Below are positions 30,157-41,458 of a stretch of DNA of 64,000 nt, piece by piece. Each line of letters opens with the position of its first letter. The first letter of the stretch is position 1. Source of the stretch: Candidatus Peregrinibacteria bacterium GW2011_GWF2_43_17 (lineage in GTDB: Bacteria; Patescibacteriota; Gracilibacteria; UBA1369; UBA12470). Where the stretch lies: contig LCFW01000001.1 of the NCBI GenBank assembly GCA_000999315.1, positions 1 through 64,000 on the forward strand, given 5' to 3'. The position numbers and the translations under genes were made by a program. The notes beneath the pieces were generated by a model. The model was not told the DNA's origin. It was given only the letters and a program-made list of their open reading frames with translations, and did no database searches.

Positions 30157-33093
30157 ATGTCGATCATTGGCGGTTTAAATAACAATAAGGGAACGAAAGT
30201 ATCATATGGGGTGATACTTGTTATTGGTATTTTCGTCATTTTCTCTTTTGTTGTGCTTGGCGGTAATCGCATATTGCAACTTCCCATTCGGGACTTTTCC
30301 GGTGTCGATCATATTCACGTTGTTGCCAGTCCTTTGATTTCCGTTTCGGATGGCGAGCATGTTTTTGTAAGGACTTCGGAAGAGTTTAAAGATAATTATT
30401 CAGAGATCAGCCTGACCTCTCTAAAATTGAATGTGTATGCCCTGGAAGTTTATATTTACGGTGCCGGCGATTCTTTGATCGGTACAACATTCGGGTCGAT
30501 CATTATTCCCGTTGAAATTTCACCGGTTATGCGAATTGTTGCGATAGCCTTGTTTATGATTGTGTTTCTGATTTTTTTGTATAAAAAACCCAAAATCGAG
30601 CTGCTTGTTCTCAGGACGGCAATGGTGGGTAGTTTCATTATGCTTTGTATGATGCTTATCGTAGTAAAAATCGGCATAACGCCGACTTATTCGAGCGATA
30701 CCTCTTTCGATGTTGGCGATGTGAATTCTTTACAATTCGATGAGTTGGTTGTCGATATGGAGGAGGATATACAGGAGCCGATATCCGAGCCGGTGGAAAG
30801 TACGGATATTGTTGAGGAAGTGACGGAAGAAGCGAGTGAAGAGGTCGAGTTGGATAAAGAAGTTAAACAAGACGAACCAGTGGAAAGCACAGAGATTGTT
30901 TCGGATGTTGTTGAGGAAGTGACGGAAGAAGCGAGTGAAGAGGTCGAACAAGATTTAACTGCCGAGAGTGATGAGGACTGGTTATCGGAAATATCTTTTG
31001 AGCAAGATGAACTTGGTGTGTGCCTTGATACGGTTCTGGAGATGTGGCAAAAAACAGATGCTGTTGATGAGGAGTTATCCTTGGTTGGCAAGTTGCAAAA
31101 TCATGTAGATAATTTAACGGCATTTTTGTTGAAAGGGATGTTGATGGTGGACGTCTTGGACGTTAATGGTAAAACATCCAAGCTTGAGAAAAAAATCGAG
31201 AAGGTTTTGGCAACCGAAAGCGATGATATAACGGAAAATGTTGAAGAATCCGATAAAAAAGTTTCGAAACAAAGTGAGGAGGAAAAGTCCGAAGAAAATT
31301 CGACCGGAACAGGTTTCTCGGAGAAGGATGTTGAAGTTTCCGAACAAATTATAGAAGCGGAAGAAGCGAATGAGCTGACGGGAAGTGGCTATGTCGTTGA
31401 AGACGCAGAGGAAGATGAATTGACAGGGAGCGGCTACGCGGCTGAAATTGTTGAAGAGGTTGAGGAGGAAAAGTCCGAAGAAAATTCGACCGGAACAGGT
31501 TTCTCGGAGAAGGATGTTGAAGTTTCCGAACAAATTATAGAAGCGGAAGAAACGAATGAGCTGACGGGAAGCGGCTATGTCGTTGAAGACGCAGAGGAAG
31601 ATGTTTTCGATGTTGACGATTTTCTGGCGGGATATGATGGTCCGGAGGAGTTTCTGAGGGGCTTGTTCGGGCTTGAGAATCTCGATGATTGCGCGGCGGT
31701 GTTCAATGCCGTCAACGAGCGGTCCGATTACGGCGAGTTTGTCGGTTGGCTGAACTCTTTTTTGGAGATGGTATCGTCGGATGAAGATATTAAAGAAGAT
31801 GATATGGAGGATGTCGAAGTTTCAATTTTGGATGTAAATATTTTGCCGAATCCTGTATTTCTCGATTCGCAATTGAGTGTTGATTATATTCAACTGGATA
31901 ATGACGTGGATGGTGTTAATTTCGAGTATCAATGGCAGAAAAAAAACGTTGACGAAGATTCTTATGCGGCGAATTTTTCCAACAAGAAAATGTTTGAAAG
32001 TTTGGAACTGAACGGGTCCGATTATTTTTACGATCCCGAGAAAATTGATATTGGTTTCTCTTTTGATTTTTATGGGCAAACTTATAATGAATTGTATTTA
32101 TCGAAACAAGGCTTTGCGAGTTTTTCGGAAATACCGGATGGTTATGTGGCGGATTCCGAAATCGATATGCCGATAATCGCTCCATTCTTGGTTTATGAAG
32201 ATATTTTTAATTCGAGAGAAACTTATATAGAGGTTCAAACTATCGGTTCGGAGGGTGAGCGCGAAGTCGTGGTGCAGTGGCATTTTGTTACCGGCGATCT
32301 TTGCGAGGAGTTTTTGATGCAATTGCATTTGTATGAAAAAGACGACTCGATATCGTTCCATTACGAGAAGAGTTTTGATTTCGTTAAGTCTTACGGTGTT
32401 TTCGTGGGTCTTAAATATGGTGACCGATTCGAATTTGTTATCGATGGCGATAAAGTTATTAACAGTTTCCGTTCAATTGTTATAACTCGCGAGTCCGGAT
32501 TTGAGTTTGAGGATATCGTCGGGCAACAAAGTTCCGTTTTGACGGAGGTTCTTGCATGCGATTGGGATTACAGGGCCGTCTTGACGCCTTACGGTGACCA
32601 TATTCATGGTGATACTTTTCATACCGCTTCCGTTACTCCGTTGTGTGAAGATTCCGGTGTTGACGAGCCGATTTCGGAAGATGATGTTGCCTGGTACGAT
32701 TTGAGCGCTGTCCAGTTCAGGACTTATCCCGATGGTGAGAGGGTTGCCGTTCGGGGCTATGATCAGGTTTTGGGGATCTCGCTTGTCGATGAGATCGGAC
32801 TTGAAGTGTTTTCCGGCACCAAAAGCTTTTATTTGACGGTCGGTTCGTTTATTGGCAGAAATAATGCGGAGAATACGATTGGCGTTGAAAATGTTTCTCT
32901 TTATATCGGTGAGGACGAGATTGTTGGAACCATAGATGGTGACAATAAATATTTCCAATTCGATCCTCAGCTTGCCATGACGGCTTATAACGAGAATGAA
33001 ATTGTCAGTTTGAGGATTTTGTTTGATTCCAACAGGGGTCAAGATATTTACGATATAAATATTAGTTATGGAATCGTTGAGAATGTTCAGTAA
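30157..33093 (+). CDS. Large membrane-anchored surface protein with acidic repeats and nidogen-like domain
   Basis: 978 residues. Membrane spans lie at about 17-37, 123-141 and 150-170. Residues 185-480 are extremely acidic and repetitive: EEVTEEASEEVE twice, and a 62-residue unit with STGTGFSEKDVEVSEQIIEA and ELTGSGY motifs duplicated. The C-terminal 430 residues are beta-rich; about 610-760 resemble a nidogen/NIDO-like extracellular domain (IGFSFDFYGQTYNELYLSKQ, then APFLVYEDIF). It is the first gene after a strong promoter and leads the dockerin- and cohesin-like genes, so a scaffold or adhesin role is inferred. The repeat block is prone to length change. Confidence 0.7.
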   Translation: MSIIGGLNNNKGTKVSYGVILVIGIFVIFSFVVLGGNRILQLPIRDFSGVDHIHVVASPLISVSDGEHVFVRTSEEFKDNYSEISLTSLKLNVYALEVYIYGAGDSLIGTTFGSIIIPVEISPVMRIVAIALFMIVFLIFLYKKPKIELLVLRTAMVGSFIMLCMMLIVVKIGITPTYSSDTSFDVGDVNSLQFDELVVDMEEDIQEPISEPVESTDIVEEVTEEASEEVELDKEVKQDEPVESTEIVSDVVEEVTEEASEEVEQDLTAESDEDWLSEISFEQDELGVCLDTVLEMWQKTDAVDEELSLVGKLQNHVDNLTAFLLKGMLMVDVLDVNGKTSKLEKKIEKVLATESDDITENVEESDKKVSKQSEEEKSEENSTGTGFSEKDVEVSEQIIEAEEANELTGSGYVVEDAEEDELTGSGYAAEIVEEVEEEKSEENSTGTGFSEKDVEVSEQIIEAEETNELTGSGYVVEDAEEDVFDVDDFLAGYDGPEEFLRGLFGLENLDDCAAVFNAVNERSDYGEFVGWLNSFLEMVSSDEDIKEDDMEDVEVSILDVNILPNPVFLDSQLSVDYIQLDNDVDGVNFEYQWQKKNVDEDSYAANFSNKKMFESLELNGSDYFYDPEKIDIGFSFDFYGQTYNELYLSKQGFASFSEIPDGYVADSEIDMPIIAPFLVYEDIFNSRETYIEVQTIGSEGEREVVVQWHFVTGDLCEEFLMQLHLYEKDDSISFHYEKSFDFVKSYGVFVGLKYGDRFEFVIDGDKVINSFRSIVITRESGFEFEDIVGQQSSVLTEVLACDWDYRAVLTPYGDHIHGDTFHTASVTPLCEDSGVDEPISEDDVAWYDLSAVQFRTYPDGERVAVRGYDQVLGISLVDEIGLEVFSGTKSFYLTVGSFIGRNNAENTIGVENVSLYIGEDEIVGTIDGDNKYFQFDPQLAMTAYNENEIVSLRILFDSNRGQDIYDINISYGIVENVQ
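31276..31602 (+). repeat. 141-bp in-frame direct duplication (186-bp period)
   Basis: 31276-31416 is repeated almost exactly at 31462-31602, with only a few substitutions. A second, shorter direct repeat (38 bp identical, 99-bp period) lies at 30811-30848 and 30910-30947. Both keep the reading frame. Confidence 0.85.
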
Positions 33094-34390
33094 AAAATTC
33101 GGCATAGTACTGATTGTGATTTTTTTGGGAATATTTCTTGTTGTTGGAGTTGGTCACGATAATTTCTTATTAAAACTGCTTAAAGACGATGTTGCTTTTA
33201 CCGTTGTCGGTGTCACTCTATCTCCCGATACCACGCCTCCGGATACTCCTTTGGTATCGGTTTATTCCACATTGTGTGACAGTGTTGCGGGGGAAGTAAT
33301 TTTAATGATAACAAGCGAATACGATGCCGATATTTATATCAATGATCAGTATGTGGATACGGTTGAAGATTCGAATGGTGTTATGTACGCTACTCTTCCC
33401 CTGTCCGACGGGCTTAACTATTTTACGATTTACGCGATTGATCCCTATGACAACAGGTCCCTTTCCACCGAAATCTTAGTGCAATGCGGTTCCGGTGGCG
33501 GTACGAGTGGCGGTACGAGTGGCGGTACGAGTGGCGGTGGTGCAGGTGGAACCAGGTTTGATGGCGGATCCGACGGTGGTGGTGGCACTGATGATGGTGA
33601 ACCTGGTGATGGCGGATCCGACGGTGGTGGTGGCACTGATGATGGTGAACCTGGTGATGGCGGTACCGACGGTGGTGGTAGTGGCACTGATGATGGTGAA
33701 CCTGGTGGTGGCGGTACCGACGGTGGTGGTCCTCAAGAATATCCCGATATATCAGAGCCTTATTTTGGAGATCAAGATTGGGTTTGGGATGAATCAAGCT
33801 CGATCTGGTATGATTCGGATTTTATTGAAACGGTTTATGATGGTGACGGGAAGGTGTCTTTCGATTGGAGTAAATTTCAATGGCAGGATTACGGATGGTC
33901 GTATTCCGGGTGGGAGGAACAAAGCGATGATGTTGCAGATCCCGTTTTTAGTGTGAACGAATATGTTGCCACTTCAAATTGGGAATTTTACGAGGGAAGT
34001 TTCAGTATTTACGGGCATGATCAAGAAAGTGTCGTTGTACAAGGGGACTTCTTGTTCGGTGATTATGCGTGGCAACAGCAGTATATAGGATTGTCTCCGG
34101 GTATGTACGATGTCGCGATTAATCCAAAAGCCGCTCTTACCGTAATTATAAGAAGTGTGGAAATACGGCAAGATGTTGTCGTTTATAATTTCGGAGATAA
34201 TTTCGAAGTAGTGCTTGGCGATTTGTATGATGATAATGTTATCAATGCTCTTGATATGGCCGTTATGATTGACGAATATCAATCCGAGGGTGATTATATT
34301 TCGGATTTAACCGGAGACAGCGTCATCAATTCTCTGGATTTGGCAATTTTAATTTCCAATTACTATATGCAAGGTGATGATTCTATGTAA
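33068..34390 (+). CDS. Secreted/anchored protein with Gly-rich repeats and C-terminal dockerin-like domain
   Basis: 440 residues. A signal anchor (about 11-28) precedes an Ig/fibronectin-like domain (about 55-140). Next is a Gly/Asp/Glu repeat linker (about 142-222, unit GGSDGGGGTDDGEPGD), then an aromatic-rich beta domain (about 225-375). The last 60 residues contain two tandem EF-hand-like repeats, GDLYDDNVINALDMAVMIDE and SDLTGDSVINSLDLAILISN, with the spacing of type I dockerins; calcium positions 3 are Tyr and Thr. The first start overlaps the preceding gene by 26 bp; ATG 33083 is an alternative. The next gene encodes a cohesin-like protein. Confidence 0.75.
   Translation: MESLRMFSKKFGIVLIVIFLGIFLVVGVGHDNFLLKLLKDDVAFTVVGVTLSPDTTPPDTPLVSVYSTLCDSVAGEVILMITSEYDADIYINDQYVDTVEDSNGVMYATLPLSDGLNYFTIYAIDPYDNRSLSTEILVQCGSGGGTSGGTSGGTSGGGAGGTRFDGGSDGGGGTDDGEPGDGGSDGGGGTDDGEPGDGGTDGGGSGTDDGEPGGGGTDGGGPQEYPDISEPYFGDQDWVWDESSSIWYDSDFIETVYDGDGKVSFDWSKFQWQDYGWSYSGWEEQSDDVADPVFSVNEYVATSNWEFYEGSFSIYGHDQESVVVQGDFLFGDYAWQQQYIGLSPGMYDVAINPKAALTVIIRSVEIRQDVVVYNFGDNFEVVLGDLYDDNVINALDMAVMIDEYQSEGDYISDLTGDSVINSLDLAILISNYYMQGDDSM
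33498..33730 (+). repeat. Tandem Gly-rich coding repeats
   Basis: Three 12-bp units (GGTACGAGTGGC) are followed by a 48-bp unit at 33560-33607, 33608-33655 and 33656-33706 (with 3 extra bases) and a partial fourth. All are in frame and encode a flexible linker. Such tracts expand and contract by slippage. Confidence 0.85.
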
Positions 34391-34404: not shown

Positions 34405-35451
34405 ATGAAAACAAAAATAATGTCTTTTATCAAGTATATGTCGTGGAGGTTGCCGATTGCCATGTTTATTATTGTAAGTTTTGTGCCAAATGCCGCGGCG
34501 GCAAGGTTTTATCTTGAGAGTGTTACCGACATGGTTCAAGGCTGTCCCGCTACGGTTGCCGTCATGATCGATACGGAGAATTCCGATGTTTTGGCGGCCG
34601 ATATGGCGATTACTTACGATGCCGATGAGCTTATGCCGAGCGAAATCAGAGTGGGGGATGCTTTACCCATGCAAGTTTTCAATCAAATTACCGGTGATCA
34701 AATTCAATTTAGCGCTTCGAGAGAGCCTGTAACCGGTAGTTTCAACGGCGTTGGGATTTTTGGATATATTGATTTCGTTGCCGGATATGCCGACGGCGGA
34801 AATTTTCTTTTTTCATCCGATTTGGAATTCGATAATGTTATTGCAAGCTCAAACATCGTGAATGTTATTACGGGAATCGAGAGTATGCTGTTCCAGTTTA
34901 GAGATAGGTACAACGTTGACGTGGATGGTGTCGGTTTTTGTACGGTTGATGCCATTCCTCCGACAGTTTCCCCGATCAGTCCCGCGGATTTGTCGGTCGG
35001 CAATGCTCTCGATACGGATGTGGTTTTTTCTTTGGAGGATGATCGTGTCGGTGTTGATATGGATACATTAAACTTTACCATAGACGGGATTTCTTATGAT
35101 CGGTTATCGGATCAAGTTAATATAACGGAGGATGACGGGGTTTTCCTTGTGGAAGCGAATCCCGATGCGAATTTCGATTTGGGCAAAGATATTGTCGTGA
35201 GTGTATATGTTTGCGACAACAATGACGAGCCCGACCCGAATTGCGTCACCGACAGTTACAGCTTTATTGCCGATAAAGATTTGTTGTCGGAGCCGGTTGC
35301 CAAAATTGTTGAATTCGAAAAATTGCACGGAAGTTCCAATGATTGTTGCGACACCTGCGCGCAAATATTGTTTCCGTGGTGGATATTATTGATATTGCTG
35401 GTATTGTTGATTTCGAGTTGGCTTTATATTTTAAAACTTAAATCCAAATGA
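34405..35451 (+). CDS. Membrane-anchored cohesin-like protein
   Basis: 348 residues. A signal peptide ending near PNAAAA is followed by a cohesin-like beta-sandwich at about 35-170 (TVAVMIDTENSDVLAADMAI, YDADELMPSEIRVGDALP, then GVGIFGYIDFVAG), matching the cohesin order of strands. A second Ig-like domain spans about 187-298. The tail has CCDTC, a membrane span (WWILLILLVLLISSWLYILK) and a basic end, which anchors the protein with its domains outside. Adjacent to a dockerin-like protein, it may be the receptor of that partner. It overlaps the next gene by 4 bp. Confidence 0.72.
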   Translation: MKTKIMSFIKYMSWRLPIAMFIIVSFVPNAAAARFYLESVTDMVQGCPATVAVMIDTENSDVLAADMAITYDADELMPSEIRVGDALPMQVFNQITGDQIQFSASREPVTGSFNGVGIFGYIDFVAGYADGGNFLFSSDLEFDNVIASSNIVNVITGIESMLFQFRDRYNVDVDGVGFCTVDAIPPTVSPISPADLSVGNALDTDVVFSLEDDRVGVDMDTLNFTIDGISYDRLSDQVNITEDDGVFLVEANPDANFDLGKDIVVSVYVCDNNDEPDPNCVTDSYSFIADKDLLSEPVAKIVEFEKLHGSSNDCCDTCAQILFPWWILLILLVLLISSWLYILKLKSK

Positions 35452-35990
35452 AAAAGAAGATTTGTTTCATTTGGATTGCGGCTCAAGCTTGTTTATTTGT
35501 AACGGTTTTTATCGTTCATGCGCAAACCTGCGTCGGTGGTGGAGTGCTTTCCATTAATTCCGTACCCGTTTTGGAAAGTTTCGGGTCAGCGAATGTTGAC
35601 GTATACGATCAGGAATTGATCCATGTCTTTTCCGATTTTGTGCAGTTTGAAGATTCCAGAGCCGTCGCGCAAAGTTTTACTCTTTATGTCTCAGTTACGG
35701 ATTTCGATGCCATATCTGTTGAAAATATTTCTATTATAAGCGATGAAGACGATATTATCGATTATAACGCGGAATGCGATAATGTAGAGGGCATTACGCT
35801 TCAGCACACTTCGTTTTCTTCATTTGTTGATACGGATAACGATGGGGTCTCTGACAATAAGGCGTTGGTTGTTGGTGATGACAGAACAAGAGTTGGCAAT
35901 TATTCAATAAAACCCAAAATCAAACTTGTTGTTCCTGGTTCGTTATTGGCCGGTAATTACTCCTCGACTTTAACTTTTTCTATAATTTGA
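35448..35990 (+). CDS. Secreted WxL-like protein (FxL variant)
   Basis: 180 residues with a signal peptide ending VHAQ. The fold of WxL surface domains is recognisable by its two landmark segments: FEDSRAVAQSFTLYVSV, where WxL proteins have sDxRxxxxGWxLxxs, and PGSLLAGNYSSTLTFSI, where they have PxxxxxGxYxsxLTWxL. Both tryptophans are Phe (Phe77, Phe177). Between them is DTDNDGVSDN, a thrombospondin type 3-like calcium loop. WxL domains attach non-covalently to Gram-positive cell walls and to DUF916 partners; three DUF916-like genes lie just downstream. Ends 11 bp into the convergent gene. Confidence 0.7.
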   Translation: MKKKICFIWIAAQACLFVTVFIVHAQTCVGGGVLSINSVPVLESFGSANVDVYDQELIHVFSDFVQFEDSRAVAQSFTLYVSVTDFDAISVENISIISDEDDIIDYNAECDNVEGITLQHTSFSSFVDTDNDGVSDNKALVVGDDRTRVGNYSIKPKIKLVVPGSLLAGNYSSTLTFSII

Positions 35991-36678
35991 TTTTTTTCTT
36001 GTTGTTTCTTTGATTCATGATCGTTACGAACAATCCCGCAATGATTATTATAAGCCCCGTTATTATATATTTGTAGTATGAGATTCCCGTTGTATTTGTT
36101 TTTGTCGCTTCTTTCATTTCCAATTCTTCCAGGAACTGTACGAACTCTTCTTTGTCCACCACTTCGACTTTTACCCGAAGACCGTTTCGTATGACGCTAT
36201 TGATCGAGGTTCCTCCTTCGCTGTTTTCCGATGCGGAGATCGCATCACTAACGATAGCGGAAACTCCGCCCCAATATGTTCCGGTTGCGGTACCTTCCGG
36301 CAAGGTGAATGTCAATGTGATTGTCCCATATTCTCCCGGTTCAACGGTTACGGTTTTTGTTGAAAGGACGCCCCATTTTCCTATATGGCTTTGTTCTTTA
36401 GTATCGTCGGATAATGCGAAAAACCCATCCACTTCGGTTGTATTGCTGGCATCGTTTACGGAAACCGCGTATGAGTGGGTTTCCTCCGATAAATTAACGA
36501 CAAGGAAATCGTCCGATACGGATTCTCCCGGGGCGACTTTCAATTCGATATAAGGCGATTCGTTGGTTACAAAATCATCTCTTTGCAGGGAGAATGTTCC
36601 CGCCAATGCGATTGGTATTAGCATGCTTAACGATGTGCCGATTACCAACATTCCGACGAGGATTCGTTTTTTTGACAT
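35980..36678 (-). CDS. DUF916/WxLIP-like membrane protein 1
   Basis: 232 residues: signal peptide (about 1-27), an Ig-like domain with the DUF916 pattern (PYIELKVAPGESVSDDFLVV, GKWGVLSTKTVTVEPGEYGT, LPEGTATGTYWGGVSA), a second strand-rich stretch, one membrane span at about 201-221 and a basic cytoplasmic tail. In Gram-positives DUF916 proteins bind peptidoglycan and WxL proteins. Third of three paralogues in a row on this strand (12-bp gap upstream). Confidence 0.75.
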   Translation of the reverse strand: MSKKRILVGMLVIGTSLSMLIPIALAGTFSLQRDDFVTNESPYIELKVAPGESVSDDFLVVNLSEETHSYAVSVNDASNTTEVDGFFALSDDTKEQSHIGKWGVLSTKTVTVEPGEYGTITLTFTLPEGTATGTYWGGVSAIVSDAISASENSEGGTSINSVIRNGLRVKVEVVDKEEFVQFLEELEMKEATKTNTTGISYYKYIITGLIIIIAGLFVTIMNQRNNKKKIKL

Positions 36679-36690
36679 GTGAAAAACGGG

Positions 36691-37359
36691 TTAAAGTTTT
36701 TTAAAAAGCGATGGTTGTTGCGCGATTACGATAAAGATTAATGCGCCGATTGTTATTATTCCCGAATACAGCAAGTATTCCGGTACCTTGTTTCTTCCGA
36801 TCCATTTATCGTAGTGCTCTATTGTTCGAGGAGTATCGGTTACCGTAAGCAGGATTCTTGCTCCCGTTTCCAGCACGGTTACCAATTGCGTACCTTCTTC
36901 GTGAGGTACGACGTATGATCCAAACAATGCTCCGTAATATTCCTTATGGCTTGTGTTTTCCGGTATATCGATTTCGAAATTAACGGTTGTTTCTTCCTTG
37001 GGACCGAGTGTTATGATCGACTCGGATAACATTCCCCCCCACGAGCCTATATGTTCTTGAGTGTCATCATTGGTTTTCAAGGTGAAGTCTTTCAAGGTTG
37101 CTTCTTCCGTGGCGTCCGCAAATCTTAACGTGATTTCAACCGGCGTATTCTCGTAGTTTTTGATTATGAGGCTGTCCGAGATTTTCTCGCCGGGTTTTGC
37201 TTCATAGATGAACCAATAGGGATTCTCGGTATTCGGGTTGGTCGGTTTCAAGCCGATGCCTCCGGGGTTTCCTCGATCCGCGAAGACGTAAGCCAAAAGG
37301 CTTCCTATCAGAATCAATTCGATTATAACCAACAATATCAGTATTTTTTTTAATTTCAT
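36691..37359 (-). CDS. DUF916/WxLIP-like membrane protein 2
   Basis: 222 residues built like its neighbours: N-terminal signal anchor (about 6-26), an Ig-like domain with WFIYEAKPGEKISDSLIIKN, HIGSWGGMLSESIITLGPKE and IPENTSHKEYYGALFGSY, and a C-terminal membrane span (about 196-214). The conserved G-W-G and PGE motifs are shared with the 36678 protein, which shows paralogy. Second of the three; 12 bp after its upstream neighbour. Confidence 0.75.
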   Translation of the reverse strand: MKLKKILILLVIIELILIGSLLAYVFADRGNPGGIGLKPTNPNTENPYWFIYEAKPGEKISDSLIIKNYENTPVEITLRFADATEEATLKDFTLKTNDDTQEHIGSWGGMLSESIITLGPKEETTVNFEIDIPENTSHKEYYGALFGSYVVPHEEGTQLVTVLETGARILLTVTDTPRTIEHYDKWIGRNKVPEYLLYSGIITIGALIFIVIAQQPSLFKKL

Positions 37360-37371
37360 TTCAGTTGGTTT

Positions 37372-38532
37372 TTATTTTTTCGACGGTGGTATCAGTACTG
37401 TTGTTCCTTTGGGTATTTCGTAAGGCGCTTTGATTTTATTTATTTTCGCGAGCAGTTTCCAGTCCACATTGTTTGTTTTTGCAAGTTCCAGTACGCTCTC
37501 ATCTCGCGACACGATTACTCTTTTACAGTTTTTCACGAGTGTCTCTTTTTTCCTTTCTCTTCCGTAAAGTATTGCGAATACTATTAGGAACAGTATGAAG
37601 CTGACCAGTAGTTCTTTTACGGGTATGATAATGAAGGTTATTGTTTTCTCCAGTGTTTCTTTTTCCGAACCTTCTTGGTCATCTCCCGACAATTGCGATA
37701 ACAGTAGGGATTTTTCATATTCGATTTGCGTTGTCGCTTTGAAATAACCTATTATCGGCGGCGCTTCTTCCCAAAGCAATATGGTCGGTTCTATGGAGCT
37801 GTTACCCGGAGTTGCGTTTAAACTTGTTTCTATCGTTTCCGATGAGAAGATGCTTTCCAAGGTTACCGTTGCATTACTTGCCACTGTTACATTCCCATCG
37901 TTTTCCAGCGTGTAAGTCAAATAATGTTGACCGTTATCGTTTACGGAATGTTCATAACCGGTCCAGCTAAAGTCCATTATGACATCCCCTTTTACCGTTA
38001 TATACATTCGCACACCTATGTTGATAACACTTTTCACGCTGGCGCCGCCGGACGAGACATCCTCTTCGGTATTTTTCTCGTCGGTTCCCGGACCGATCAA
38101 GAATCCGCCCGCGTAATCTCCCGGGCTTGCGTTTTCGGGTACCGTTAAGGTGAAAGAGCCTTTTACTTTTTCACCCGCATCCACCGTCATTGCGGTGGAG
38201 TCGTTAATTGTTATCCATTCTTGAATTCCACCTTCGCTTATGCCACAACCCAGTAGCGCAAAAGCTCCCTCCGATGTTGTTGTCGCCGTGGAAGGACAGA
38301 TGATGATGTTTTGCGCGTAATCGGCTCCGTTATAAATTTCGAAAGTATCTTCGATTGTTTCTCCCGGATTTAATTCGTATGTAAACCATGAACTGATTTC
38401 ACGTTCTTTGTCGCTTGTCGGCATGATGCCCATACGTTCCTGAGCCATTGCCGGCTGACCGGTAATGCAAAATAATATTGTGGCAATCGCTCCCGCGTAT
38501 GCCAATTTGAAAATTCCTGTCGTCTTTTTCAT
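37372..38532 (-). CDS. DUF916/WxLIP-like membrane protein 3 with terminal LysM-like domain
   Basis: 386 residues: signal peptide ending AMAQ; DUF916-like domain (about 45-185; SWFTYELNPGETIEDTFEIY, LTVPENASPGDYAGGFLIGP); a second beta domain (about 186-280) like the second domain of WxL-interacting proteins; a membrane span at about 306-327; and a C-terminal LysM-like module (RVIVSRDESVLELAKTNNVD, then IPKGTTVLIPP). With an N-terminal cleaved signal and one span, the LysM module would face the cytoplasm, which is unexpected for a peptidoglycan-binding motif. First of the three paralogues. Confidence 0.75.
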   Translation of the reverse strand: MKKTTGIFKLAYAGAIATILFCITGQPAMAQERMGIMPTSDKEREISSWFTYELNPGETIEDTFEIYNGADYAQNIIICPSTATTTSEGAFALLGCGISEGGIQEWITINDSTAMTVDAGEKVKGSFTLTVPENASPGDYAGGFLIGPGTDEKNTEEDVSSGGASVKSVINIGVRMYITVKGDVIMDFSWTGYEHSVNDNGQHYLTYTLENDGNVTVASNATVTLESIFSSETIETSLNATPGNSSIEPTILLWEEAPPIIGYFKATTQIEYEKSLLLSQLSGDDQEGSEKETLEKTITFIIIPVKELLVSFILFLIVFAILYGRERKKETLVKNCKRVIVSRDESVLELAKTNNVDWKLLAKINKIKAPYEIPKGTTVLIPPSKK

Positions 38533-38559
38533 TAGTTTTTGTTTTAAAAAATAAGTTTG

Positions 38560-38850
38560 TTATTCTTCGATTGTTATGCCGATCGTCGTTGTGTCTACGG
38601 AAAATCCTTGGCTCACGAACACATCTCCTTGCGATATGAAATGTTCGACAGGGGCCGGATCCGTTTCTTCCGCGGATTCATTCGGTATTGCCTCGAAAGG
38701 TGGCAGTATGTTGCTTGCAGTTTGCAAGTTTGTTTGCAAATTGCTTGATGTGGCATCTCCCGATTTTCCCTGCGTGTTGATCTCCACGGTTATTATGGCT
38801 ACGAAAGCCAAAGCGGAAACGAGAGCCGCGATAAGGGCTGTTCTGATCAT
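38560..38850 (-). CDS. Small exported protein
   Basis: 96 residues. An N-terminal hydrophobic segment (about 5-23) acts as signal or anchor, followed by a Ser/Thr/Asn-rich and Glu/Pro-rich region with no recognised motif. It starts the run 38850-35980 on the minus strand, 27 bp before the three DUF916-like genes, so it is probably part of that surface system. Function unknown. Confidence 0.65.
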   Translation of the reverse strand: MIRTALIAALVSALAFVAIITVEINTQGKSGDATSSNLQTNLQTASNILPPFEAIPNESAEETDPAPVEHFISQGDVFVSQGFSVDTTTIGITIEE

Positions 38851-38942
38851 GTTTTATATGGTTAATTGATTAACGGTTGTATGATAACGGGTTCCGTTTT
38901 TGTTTTCAAGTTGAAATCACATTTTTCAGAAGTTCCTTAAAC

Positions 38943-38973
38943 AAAAAAACCTCTCCGTCAAGTGAAGAGGTTT
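38943..38973 (-). terminator. Rho-independent terminator of the WxL-like gene
   Basis: On the minus strand AAACCTCT (38966-38973) pairs with AGAGGTTT (38947-38954), followed by a run of seven T (38943-38949). It lies 45 bp after the stop of the WxL-like gene, separating it from the 38850 gene. Confidence 0.8.
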
Positions 38974-39017
38974 TATTATGTTTCTTGCGAGCAAGTTTGT
39001 CTCAACTTTTCTTGAAC

Positions 39018-39602
39018 TTAAGATATGGAGTAAGTAATGGTTGACGTATATGTTCCCGCCGCTTGTGAGCCCGGGATTGTCACGTCTATGGTTGGTGTGA
39101 ACGTGCATGTGTCAACACGTACTACCGAAGTGTCTGCGGAGACTAAAGATTTGGCATCCGAGATTTCGCCTGTACCGGAGAACATTGCTACGGTGTTGTT
39201 TACTGTTACACCTGCAGTGCAGCCAGAGGATCCGACGGCTGTAAGAGTGGCATCGTTGTCACCGGACATTTCGAATTGTTGGTATGGGAAGTAATTCACC
39301 CCTGATGTGAAGTACTGAGCTGTGGCCACTAGAGAGTATCCGGCATTTGTAGATCTGAGATCTGAGAATTGTACCGGAGTGCTGAATGTTACGTCCCCAA
39401 GATCTTGAGAGCTGGTTGAAACGCTTGTGCCTGTGAAGTTAACGCTTGCAGGTACAGAATCGATCGTCAGTCCGGATATGCCTGAGATGACAACACTACT
39501 TGTCGTTTGCCCCGTTGTTGATGCGAAAGCGAAAGCGAAAAGCGTAACGTTTGCCATCAATGCGGCAACGATAACGAGGCCGCATAGTTTTTTGTTTTTC
39601 AT
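39018..39602 (-). CDS. Secreted WxL-like surface protein (YxL variant)
   Basis: 194 residues with a long signal peptide (cleavage near AFAS at about 28). The mature part is Ser/Thr-rich and beta-rich. WxL landmarks: FSDLRSTNAGYSLVATAQYF at 79-98 and IPGSQAAGTYTSTITYSIS at 176-194; the two WxL tryptophans are Tyr89 and Tyr191. Cys128 and Cys166 could form a disulfide. A perfect consensus promoter, a leader of about 105 nt and a dedicated terminator mark it as a highly expressed single gene, probably the main surface subunit recognised by the neighbouring DUF916-like proteins. Confidence 0.78.
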   Translation of the reverse strand: MKNKKLCGLVIVAALMANVTLFAFAFASTTGQTTSSVVISGISGLTIDSVPASVNFTGTSVSTSSQDLGDVTFSTPVQFSDLRSTNAGYSLVATAQYFTSGVNYFPYQQFEMSGDNDATLTAVGSSGCTAGVTVNNTVAMFSGTGEISDAKSLVSADTSVVRVDTCTFTPTIDVTIPGSQAAGTYTSTITYSIS

Positions 39603-39742: not shown

Positions 39743-39811
39743 TGCGGTATAATGGTAAATTTCCAACCGGTCTGTCAAAATAATTTTCTCGATTTTTTAA
39801 TCCAATCAATT

Positions 39812-41458
39812 ATGTCAGCCATGAATCCTGAATCGTTTCAAATGTCGGGATCGAAGCTGATGCGCTTGGCGGGAACTTGTTTGGTTATGAGCGGTTGCGG
39901 TGTTCCCGATCAAGGACCCGGACGTGCACCGCTTTCATTGGTTGAGGGGAATCGCGGAATAGAAATATACGATGTGGGTATGGCGTCTCATGTAACGGTT
40001 CCCGTTAAACAAGTTTACGTGCGCGATCTCGCGGGACTTACCGATGAGAACTTGGGTTCTTTGCCGTTTGAGCTTCAAGAATTATTGAAAGGTCCGAGAC
40101 AACAGGTTAGTCTTTTATTGCATGATGGAGATTTTAGAGAAAAAGATGAAAACGGAGATACGGTTGTTCATTACAGAGTCGGTATGCGTCTTGACGATAG
40201 CGGTTCGTCTCCGGTTCCTCCGGCACCGTTTGTCCAGTTTGTGCTGGAAGAAGGTATTGTTGCTAACGAAGTGACGCCCGATAGCAATCCGAACTTGGCG
40301 ATATGCGATGGTTGCGATCTTGTTTATCCCGCCGTCGCGCATCGTTTGAACGAGGAAACCGGAGAAACGGAAGCGTATCACATGGTTAGCGTAATGGGTG
40401 GTGATTTTTCGGAGTGTTCTTACGAGCCTTATATAAATGGGGAGCGTGTATGGGATCCCGTGTATGAAAATTGTGCGATTGTCAGTTGGCAACTTGATCG
40501 GAGCGAAGGCGCGGGCAGTGTGCCGCATAATACGCCGAACGGGGCGATGGCGTACAGTACTTATATGGAGCACGATGAAACGTTTACGACTTGCGGACGA
40601 GAAGATAATGTCGGATACCACGGTTCGTTTGCGATGGAACGTGGTAATACGGAAGAAGAGTTGTGTATTCCGGATTCCGAAACTCATACTTGGGAATCGT
40701 CTTTGAGTTTGGGTAATAATTCTCTCGATGTTTTGTTTTCGCCTCCCGAAGGTGATATGACCACGGCCGAGGGAGACGGAGTTGAAGCGCTGACAACCGG
40801 ATATCACAATGTGTTTTCCAATAACGAGATGTTGGAATGTGCGCGCAGTAGATTCCTTTTTGCCGGCGATGCCATGGAACAATTATCCGTTTATGATCCG
40901 GGTACGCCTTCTTCGGGCAATGACATGCATTGCCTTCGTCCGATACAGAATCATGATGGCGATATAATGGGGATAAGATTTGAAGCGGACAGTACGTTGG
41001 GCTGGCCGCTTGATAATGAATGGTACGCTCAATTTGCTAATTTGAGTACCGGTCAAGTGTTATTGAATGTCACTTCAAATCGCACGTTGCCGGAAACGGG
41101 AACCGATTTTTGCGGTAATGTGGCTTATATATCCGCTGTTAACGAGAGCGGAGTCAAAGTTTTATATGAAGTTTATCCGGAGGATAATCCGCCCGCGGAG
41201 TGTGATTTGAGGGGCGAAATTGTTGATACGGGCGATACAGGTGATACCGGCGAGATCGTTGATACTGCGGATACGGATGATACAGGTGATATTGTTGATA
41301 CGTCGGATACCGATAATGTTGTTGATACTGCGGATACTGGGAAAACCAACGACGATGAAGGTTGCGATTGCGGTTCGTCACATTTAAACGGAGCGGGATT
41401 GTCACCCTTGTTGCTTGGGTTTGCCGCACTTATAAGGAGAAAGCTCTACCGAATTTGA
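39812..41458 (+). CDS. Lipoprotein with DTGD linker and MYXO-CTERM-like tail
   Basis: 548 residues from ATG 39812 (ATG 39821 also possible; the frame is open to 39752 through a TATAAT box). A lipobox LVMSGC lies at about 23-28. The body (about 35-460) is Cys-containing, beta-rich and unrecognised. A Thr/Asp linker (VDTGDTGDTGE, DTADTDDTGD and similar, about 468-520) leads to a C-terminus with DEGCDCGSS, a hydrophobic stretch (SPLLLGFAALI) and RRK. This is the tripartite layout of MYXO-CTERM sorting signals of myxobacteria. Having both a lipobox and such a tail is odd. It ends 13 bp into the convergent gene. Confidence 0.7.
   Translation: MSAMNPESFQMSGSKLMRLAGTCLVMSGCGVPDQGPGRAPLSLVEGNRGIEIYDVGMASHVTVPVKQVYVRDLAGLTDENLGSLPFELQELLKGPRQQVSLLLHDGDFREKDENGDTVVHYRVGMRLDDSGSSPVPPAPFVQFVLEEGIVANEVTPDSNPNLAICDGCDLVYPAVAHRLNEETGETEAYHMVSVMGGDFSECSYEPYINGERVWDPVYENCAIVSWQLDRSEGAGSVPHNTPNGAMAYSTYMEHDETFTTCGREDNVGYHGSFAMERGNTEEELCIPDSETHTWESSLSLGNNSLDVLFSPPEGDMTTAEGDGVEALTTGYHNVFSNNEMLECARSRFLFAGDAMEQLSVYDPGTPSSGNDMHCLRPIQNHDGDIMGIRFEADSTLGWPLDNEWYAQFANLSTGQVLLNVTSNRTLPETGTDFCGNVAYISAVNESGVKVLYEVYPEDNPPAECDLRGEIVDTGDTGDTGEIVDTADTDDTGDIVDTSDTDNVVDTADTGKTNDDEGCDCGSSHLNGAGLSPLLLGFAALIRRKLYRI

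Follow-up and report, generated by a model that had tools for sequence, protein, structure and literature searches.

The genome of Candidatus Peregrinibacteria bacterium GW2011_GWF2_43_17, a patescibacterium that is very small and probably host-dependent, contains a cluster of genes that we interpret, with a probability of roughly 0.72, as encoding a divergent cell-surface complex of WxL proteins and WxL-interacting proteins (WxLIPs), belonging to the Peregrinibacteria/Peribacteria order of the Patescibacteria. The cluster lies in the first 64,000 nucleotides of contig LCFW01000001.1, which is the window analyzed here. Two of its products, A and F, would be secreted beta-sandwich WxL subunits, and three products encoded between them, B, C, and D, would be membrane-anchored WxLIPs with a DUF916 domain. 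The latter are proposed to bind the WxL subunits, probably via a strand that a flexible hairpin within DUF916 donates, thereby keeping them at the surface of the membrane or wall. Held in this way, the WxL subunits may carry or stabilize larger surface proteins, such as the product of the upstream gene I.

The open reading frames (ORFs) of the locus, when checked in the window, were as the original prediction had described them. They form two convergent groups that meet tail-to-tail: I, H, G, and A on the forward strand, and F, a small ORF (E), D, C, and B on the reverse strand. A (35448..35990, +; 180 aa) and F (39018..39602, -; 194 aa) are small WxL-type secreted proteins, each with an N-terminal signal-type helix and, according to sequence-based topology, otherwise without a transmembrane helix. 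B (35980..36678, -; 232 aa) and C (36691..37359, -; 222 aa) are short WxLIP-type proteins, consisting of a signal helix, a DUF916/PGBD domain, and one transmembrane helix (residues 204-222 and 195-213, respectively). D (37372..38532, -) has the full WxLIP-type architecture, in which the signal helix and DUF916/PGBD domain are followed by a second immunoglobulin (Ig)-like domain, a transmembrane helix (residues 300-318), and a LysM-like C-terminus. The intergenic spacing between B, C, and D is 12 bases in each case.

That three proteins with a signal peptide, Ig fold, and membrane helix of the DUF916 type lie between A and F had been proposed from the sequence, and profile searches bore this out: B, C, and D scored 33.7, 29.2, and 34.2 bits against PF06030 (WxLIP_PGBD, DUF916), all above the cut-off of 27.3. 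A profile of the D family matched Firmicute WxLIPs with an E-value of 4e-12 over 256 columns, spanning both Ig domains. The structural model of D (mean predicted local distance difference test [pLDDT] 83.1) placed it in the same family, as its first three PDB matches were the Enterococcus faecium WxLIP entries 9i25 and 9i1y (E 2.6e-12 to 4.1e-12). The top match, 9i25_C ("WxLIP bound to long WxL"), had an E-value of 2.6e-12, whereas the next entry reached only about 3e-9, so that the likeness goes beyond that of generic Ig folds. D resembles known WxLIPs (DUF916-DUF3324-transmembrane; PF06030; PDB 9i1y, 9i25) in having a pair of Ig-like domains ahead of a transmembrane helix, and in its fold as found by structure search. 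It differs in carrying an extra LysM-like tail and in its second domain, in which Pfam reports no DUF3324, although both the profile match and the fold match extend over it. Other differences from WxLIP systems are that B and C are single-domain proteins, and that there are three WxLIP paralogues here rather than one.

A and F aligned with nearly the whole of the WxL profile (PF13731), scoring 16.3 bits (E 0.0098, over 45-209 of 214) and 19.4 bits (E 0.0012, over 46-210 of 214), respectively, with the cut-off at 25. The proposed WxL identity was thus upheld in the length of the match, but not in its score. A core profile was built from nine relatives of A and F, every one of which lacks both tryptophans (Trp) after which the family is named. 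This Trp-less profile matched the Firmicute WxL domains of Enterococcus faecalis and Niallia (probability 97.4, E 1.5e-11, 177 columns), with Tyr or Phe aligned onto Trp, and matched the WxL domains of other Patescibacteria, Actinobacteria, and Firmicutes with an E-value of 3.8e-20. Controls failed to give such matches: reversed sequences had an E-value of 0.5, and DUF916 against WxL one of 0.064. Because the match to the Firmicute domains is full-length and the controls fail, the resemblance of A and F to WxL is not due to chance. The nine relatives include a third WxL paralogue from another contig of the same genome (G000:C7:25085-25666; L036 8083-8667), which is 67% identical to F, has Y/F at the two Trp columns, and scores 25.5 bits against PF13731, above the cut-off. 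This third gene is solitary, located between pheT-like and penicillin-binding-protein genes and distant from any DUF916 gene.

The likeness to small WxL proteins (PF13731, e.g., of Enterococcus) extends to the signal peptide, the size, and the C-terminal position of the domain; both A and F end 3 residues past the aromatic residue of the second motif. It also includes the DUF916 neighbor, the conserved hydrophobic positions, and an Asp/Arg pair before the first motif. This pair, D81 (W1-8) and R83 (W1-6) in F, is invariant in the alignments, and the hydrophobic residue at W1-10 is kept as well. The 2 motifs are 102 (F) and 100 (A) residues apart, compared to about 106 in published proteins. 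The differences are that both Trp are replaced by Tyr or Phe, giving Y89-S-L91 and Y191-S-I193 in F and F77-T-L79 and F177-S-I179 in A, that the second motif accordingly reads Y-S-I or F-S-I, and that single sequences remain under the Pfam cut-off. The model of F reached a pLDDT of 75.9, with residues 18-42 disordered, and sequence searches of the PDB for a WxL structure found none.

It could be argued that A and F are unrelated secreted beta-sandwich proteins encoded beside generic Ig-fold membrane proteins, and that any likeness to WxL and DUF916 is convergent. B was also above the fn3_5 cut-off (32.2 bits), which together with the sub-threshold WxL scores of A and F would fit such an explanation. 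We consider it very improbable, however, given the full-length profile matches with failing controls, the WxLIPs as clear first fold match of D, and a linkage of the two gene types that is conserved across families and classes, with WxL beside DUF916 in Actinobacteria too.

The Trp columns were read in a 59-row alignment that included Firmicute WxL domains and contained 51 rows from Patescibacteria. At the exact positions of Trp-1 and Trp-2, F has Tyr89 (39336-39338) and Tyr191 (39030-39032), and A has Phe77 (35676-35678) and Phe177 (35976-35978), confirming the substitutions that had been read from the two proteins by the original prediction. Tyr or Phe occupied both columns in all 9 cassette sequences, the third paralogue included. 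Of the 17 WxL rows contributed by the phylum's other classes, 16 had Trp-1 and none had Trp-2; the Actinobacteria gave the same pattern (4/4 and 0/4). Firmicute rows carried Trp-2 in 4 of 4 cases and Trp-1 in 3 of 4. Only 2 of the 51 patescibacterial rows had Trp-2, both from a related family (G054), and these were without Trp-1. As read from this alignment, the loss of Trp is the end of a gradient rather than a switch, and the substitution is real and fixed in the cassette of this order.

The two aromatic positions had been described as altered anchor residues, which raises the question of whether the change from Trp to Tyr or Phe alters the anchoring target and gives a wall-attachment system of new specificity. 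That none of the nine core sequences from this order has either Trp does indicate that the change is fixed rather than random. In published models, however, the Trp side chains of WxL domains lie in a buried hydrophobic platform and have no ligand-binding role (PMC9772566), and the label of anchor residues is therefore unsupported. In addition, the replacement is aromatic throughout the core set, which fits a packing role, and other Patescibacteria and Actinobacteria drop Trp-2 while keeping Trp-1, as would be expected from graded drift. A new specificity is therefore improbable in our view. Exchanging Trp for Tyr or Phe keeps the aromatic character and tells little about wall attachment; most likely, Tyr and Phe take over the role of Trp in the aromatic core, and the swap most likely leaves the basic mechanism unchanged. 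The family is not defined by the tryptophans that gave it its name: in the set compared here, Trp-2 occurred in the Firmicute rows and in only two from Patescibacteria. This has a bearing on how WxL proteins of human-associated bacteria have been proposed to work.

The cassette of A, B-C-D, and F is common to four genomes of the Peregrinibacteria/Peribacteria order, namely this one, G013 (locus L050), G024 (L051), and G020 (L052). In the tree, D formed a clade with its orthologues from G013, G024, and G020 (support 99/97), as did B (100/99), and C grouped with its orthologues from G013 and G024 (98/97). Since B, C, and D fall in separate, supported clades, the arrangement with three paralogues is old in the order. 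A recent transfer from Firmicutes was considered and dropped, as in the tree the three proteins stay with their orthologues from the order's other families. The system had been called divergent or independently derived; its divergence holds, while an independent origin is rejected because homology between the profiles extends over their whole length.

The partnership of WxL-like and DUF916 genes proposed for this genome of the candidate phyla radiation (CPR) recurred among its relatives. Within a set of 59 relatives, the nine-sequence profile detected WxL in 12 genomes, and DUF916 was found in 17; for scanning the collection with the D family, a 4-sequence alignment was used, since a 13-sequence version was too diverse. 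Across a sample of 380 genomes of the phylum, WxL was found in 10 and DUF916 in 113, and all 10 genomes with WxL also had DUF916 (hypergeometric probability about 4e-6, ignoring kinship). The two types of genes were mostly less than 4 kb apart in this sample, and a WxL gene adjoins a DUF916 gene in Actinobacteria as well. In a related family (f2), large clusters contained DUF916 and WxL genes in ratios of 6:7, 7:8, 6:6, 6:4, and 8:7. Five genomes of this family encode a WxL domain fused behind a DUF916 membrane protein (L018 9600-11777; L020 6397-8697; L023 9566-11659; L025 15261-17420; L028 201-2429), the WxL assignment having an E-value of 3.9e-12. Large WxL proteins are present in the related genomes G003, G018, G029, G043, and G054. 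Very long secreted repeat proteins with a C-terminal WxL domain, similar to the large WxL proteins of Firmicutes, were seen at L018 13084-16419 and L020 2083-5247. The locus shares the adjacent WxL and DUF916 genes of the csc/WxL clusters of Lactobacillales and Bacillales. Unlike these clusters, it has no clear large WxL gene in the window, contains several short WxLIPs, and adjoins a dockerin/cohesin-like pair, and its relatives contain many WxL and WxLIP genes in near-equal numbers as well as WxLIP-WxL fusions.

How WxLIPs hold WxL domains has been modeled previously: a strand of the WxLIP is added in parallel to the WxL sandwich, which it completes (PMC10599100). The title of entry 9i25 indicates that a solved structure of an E. 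faecium WxLIP bound to a long WxL exists. For the present system, the analysis itself shows the homology, the partnership of the genes, their conservation, and the sequence-based membrane topology; strand insertion and wall contact are extrapolated from E. faecium. By analogy to the published model, a candidate WxL-binding hairpin is found in the low-confidence loop of D at the end of the PGBD (residues 149-171; 38020..38088, -). The pLDDT drops below 50 at residues 152-160, and the loop is flanked by two long strands (138-148 and 172-180), the last two of the first domain, making it a plausible place for an inserting hairpin. Past the transmembrane helix of D, residues 336-382 (37387..37527, -) form a LysM-like domain, modeled as strand-helix-helix-strand. 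Its score against PF01476 was 16.2 bits, below the cut-off of 20.9, and that of the G013 orthologue was 21.5 bits, above it. If the Ig domains are outside, the LysM-like domain is expected to be cytoplasmic. A LysM-like domain past the helix was also seen in aligned relatives of D, an odd position for a domain best known as a peptidoglycan binder. The WxLIP helix has been proposed to enter the host membrane (PMC10599100). Here, the conserved basic or LysM-bearing tail that follows the helix suggests instead that it sits in the bacterium's own membrane.

The published insertion of a WxLIP strand into the WxL sandwich (PMC10599100) is also compatible with a more far-reaching interpretation, in which WxL proteins are pilin-like subunits that polymerize by donor-strand exchange, and DUF916 proteins are membrane-tethered, PapD-like chaperones, about one per subunit. 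The patescibacterial WxL/DUF916 loci would then be a monoderm counterpart of chaperone-pilin systems, in which two-Ig chaperones load WxL subunits by donor-strand complementation, building surface fibers or adhesin complexes for attachment to host cells. The best, though weak, PDB fold matches of F include the chaperone-usher subunits FimA, FimG, and CfaB, while for D, CFA/I and Csu chaperones complexed with subunits are among the matches that follow WxLIP and RbmA. The disordered N-terminus of mature F (residues 18-42) could act as a donor strand, and the near-equal numbers of DUF916 and WxL genes in the large related clusters depart from the 1:2 ratio usual in Bacilli (PMC10599100). However, the weakness of the F matches (best E 0.019, TM-score 0.25-0.48) counts against this interpretation, and many kinds of two-Ig proteins match D at similar levels. 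Compared to chaperone-usher pili (CfaA-CfaB, FimA, Csu), the likeness of D to the chaperones is at the level of the fold and that of F to the subunits is weak, with no demonstrated sequence homology; there is no usher, which is not expected in a monoderm, and the chaperone would be membrane-anchored. Fibers of WxL proteins were not reported in the literature searched. We therefore regard this interpretation as unlikely, both for these proteins and for the patescibacterial loci as a whole. If true, it would make the WxL cluster of Firmicutes a reduced form of such a system.

Several observations weigh against the WxL/WxLIP complex that we favor. A and F are individually below the Pfam WxL cut-off, and neither has a literal Trp-x-Leu motif at the alignment columns. 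The model of F, which is of moderate confidence, gave no significant match in the fold search against the PDB. In B and C, the second domain of WxLIPs, which binds the host, is absent, and there is no room for it. No clear large WxL protein was found in the window, and published Firmicute clusters always have one. Finally, the mutual binding of these proteins, and their binding to peptidoglycan, are postulated by analogy.

Upstream of A, the genes I, H, and G follow each other and A with gaps or overlaps of at most 26 bases. I (30157..33093, +) encodes a large envelope protein of 978 aa, with three predicted membrane helices near the N-terminus, long acidic repeats, and no Pfam match. Homologues of I occur beside A in three other genomes, where the C-terminal region is conserved, and I is a possible surface cargo. 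A WxL domain at its C-terminus was considered, as the last strand looked similar by eye, but was not supported by profile comparison (probability 0.6). H (33068..34390, +) is a secreted protein with a C-terminal type I dockerin (34217-34357; Dockerin_1, 24.8 bits, above the cut-off), which also matched dockerin chains in the PDB (E 0.0024). G (34405..35451, +) is a cohesin-like protein with a C-terminal transmembrane anchor (helix 318-336); its cohesin match (E 0.038) was below the cut-off and was not confirmed by a PDB sequence search. The genes for H and G adjoin just upstream of A, and relatives of both are found near DUF916 genes in genomes G045 (L032) and G009 (L034). Elsewhere in the present genome, a dockerin was matched a second time, more weakly (G000:C2:177055-177198). 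Possibly, dockerin/cohesin-like pairs form a non-covalent surface scaffold in Patescibacteria.

On the reverse strand, E (38560..38850, -) is an ORF of 96 aa located between F and D, with a hydrophobic stretch at its N-terminus; no relatives were found in neighboring genomes, and it may not be a gene. Beyond F, the tail of J (39752-41458) is acidic and rich in Asp and Thr and continues with Cys-x-Cys, a hydrophobic segment, and Arg/Lys. It resembles a MYXO-CTERM sorting tail, though below threshold, and the MYXO-CTERM model had no match in the genome. The genome further encodes penicillin-binding transpeptidases, one of them beside the third WxL gene, and a sortase, which makes a cell wall plausible.

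The WxL system is known mainly from Gram-positive bacteria of the gut, and a literature search, with most subscription papers outside its scope, found no paper linking WxL domains to Patescibacteria or the CPR. The results presented here place this Gram-positive surface system in several classes of Patescibacteria, in duplicated and fused forms, and, at this locus, beside a dockerin/cohesin-like pair. How Patescibacteria retain their surface proteins and attach to their hosts is poorly known, and the locus offers concrete candidates for both.

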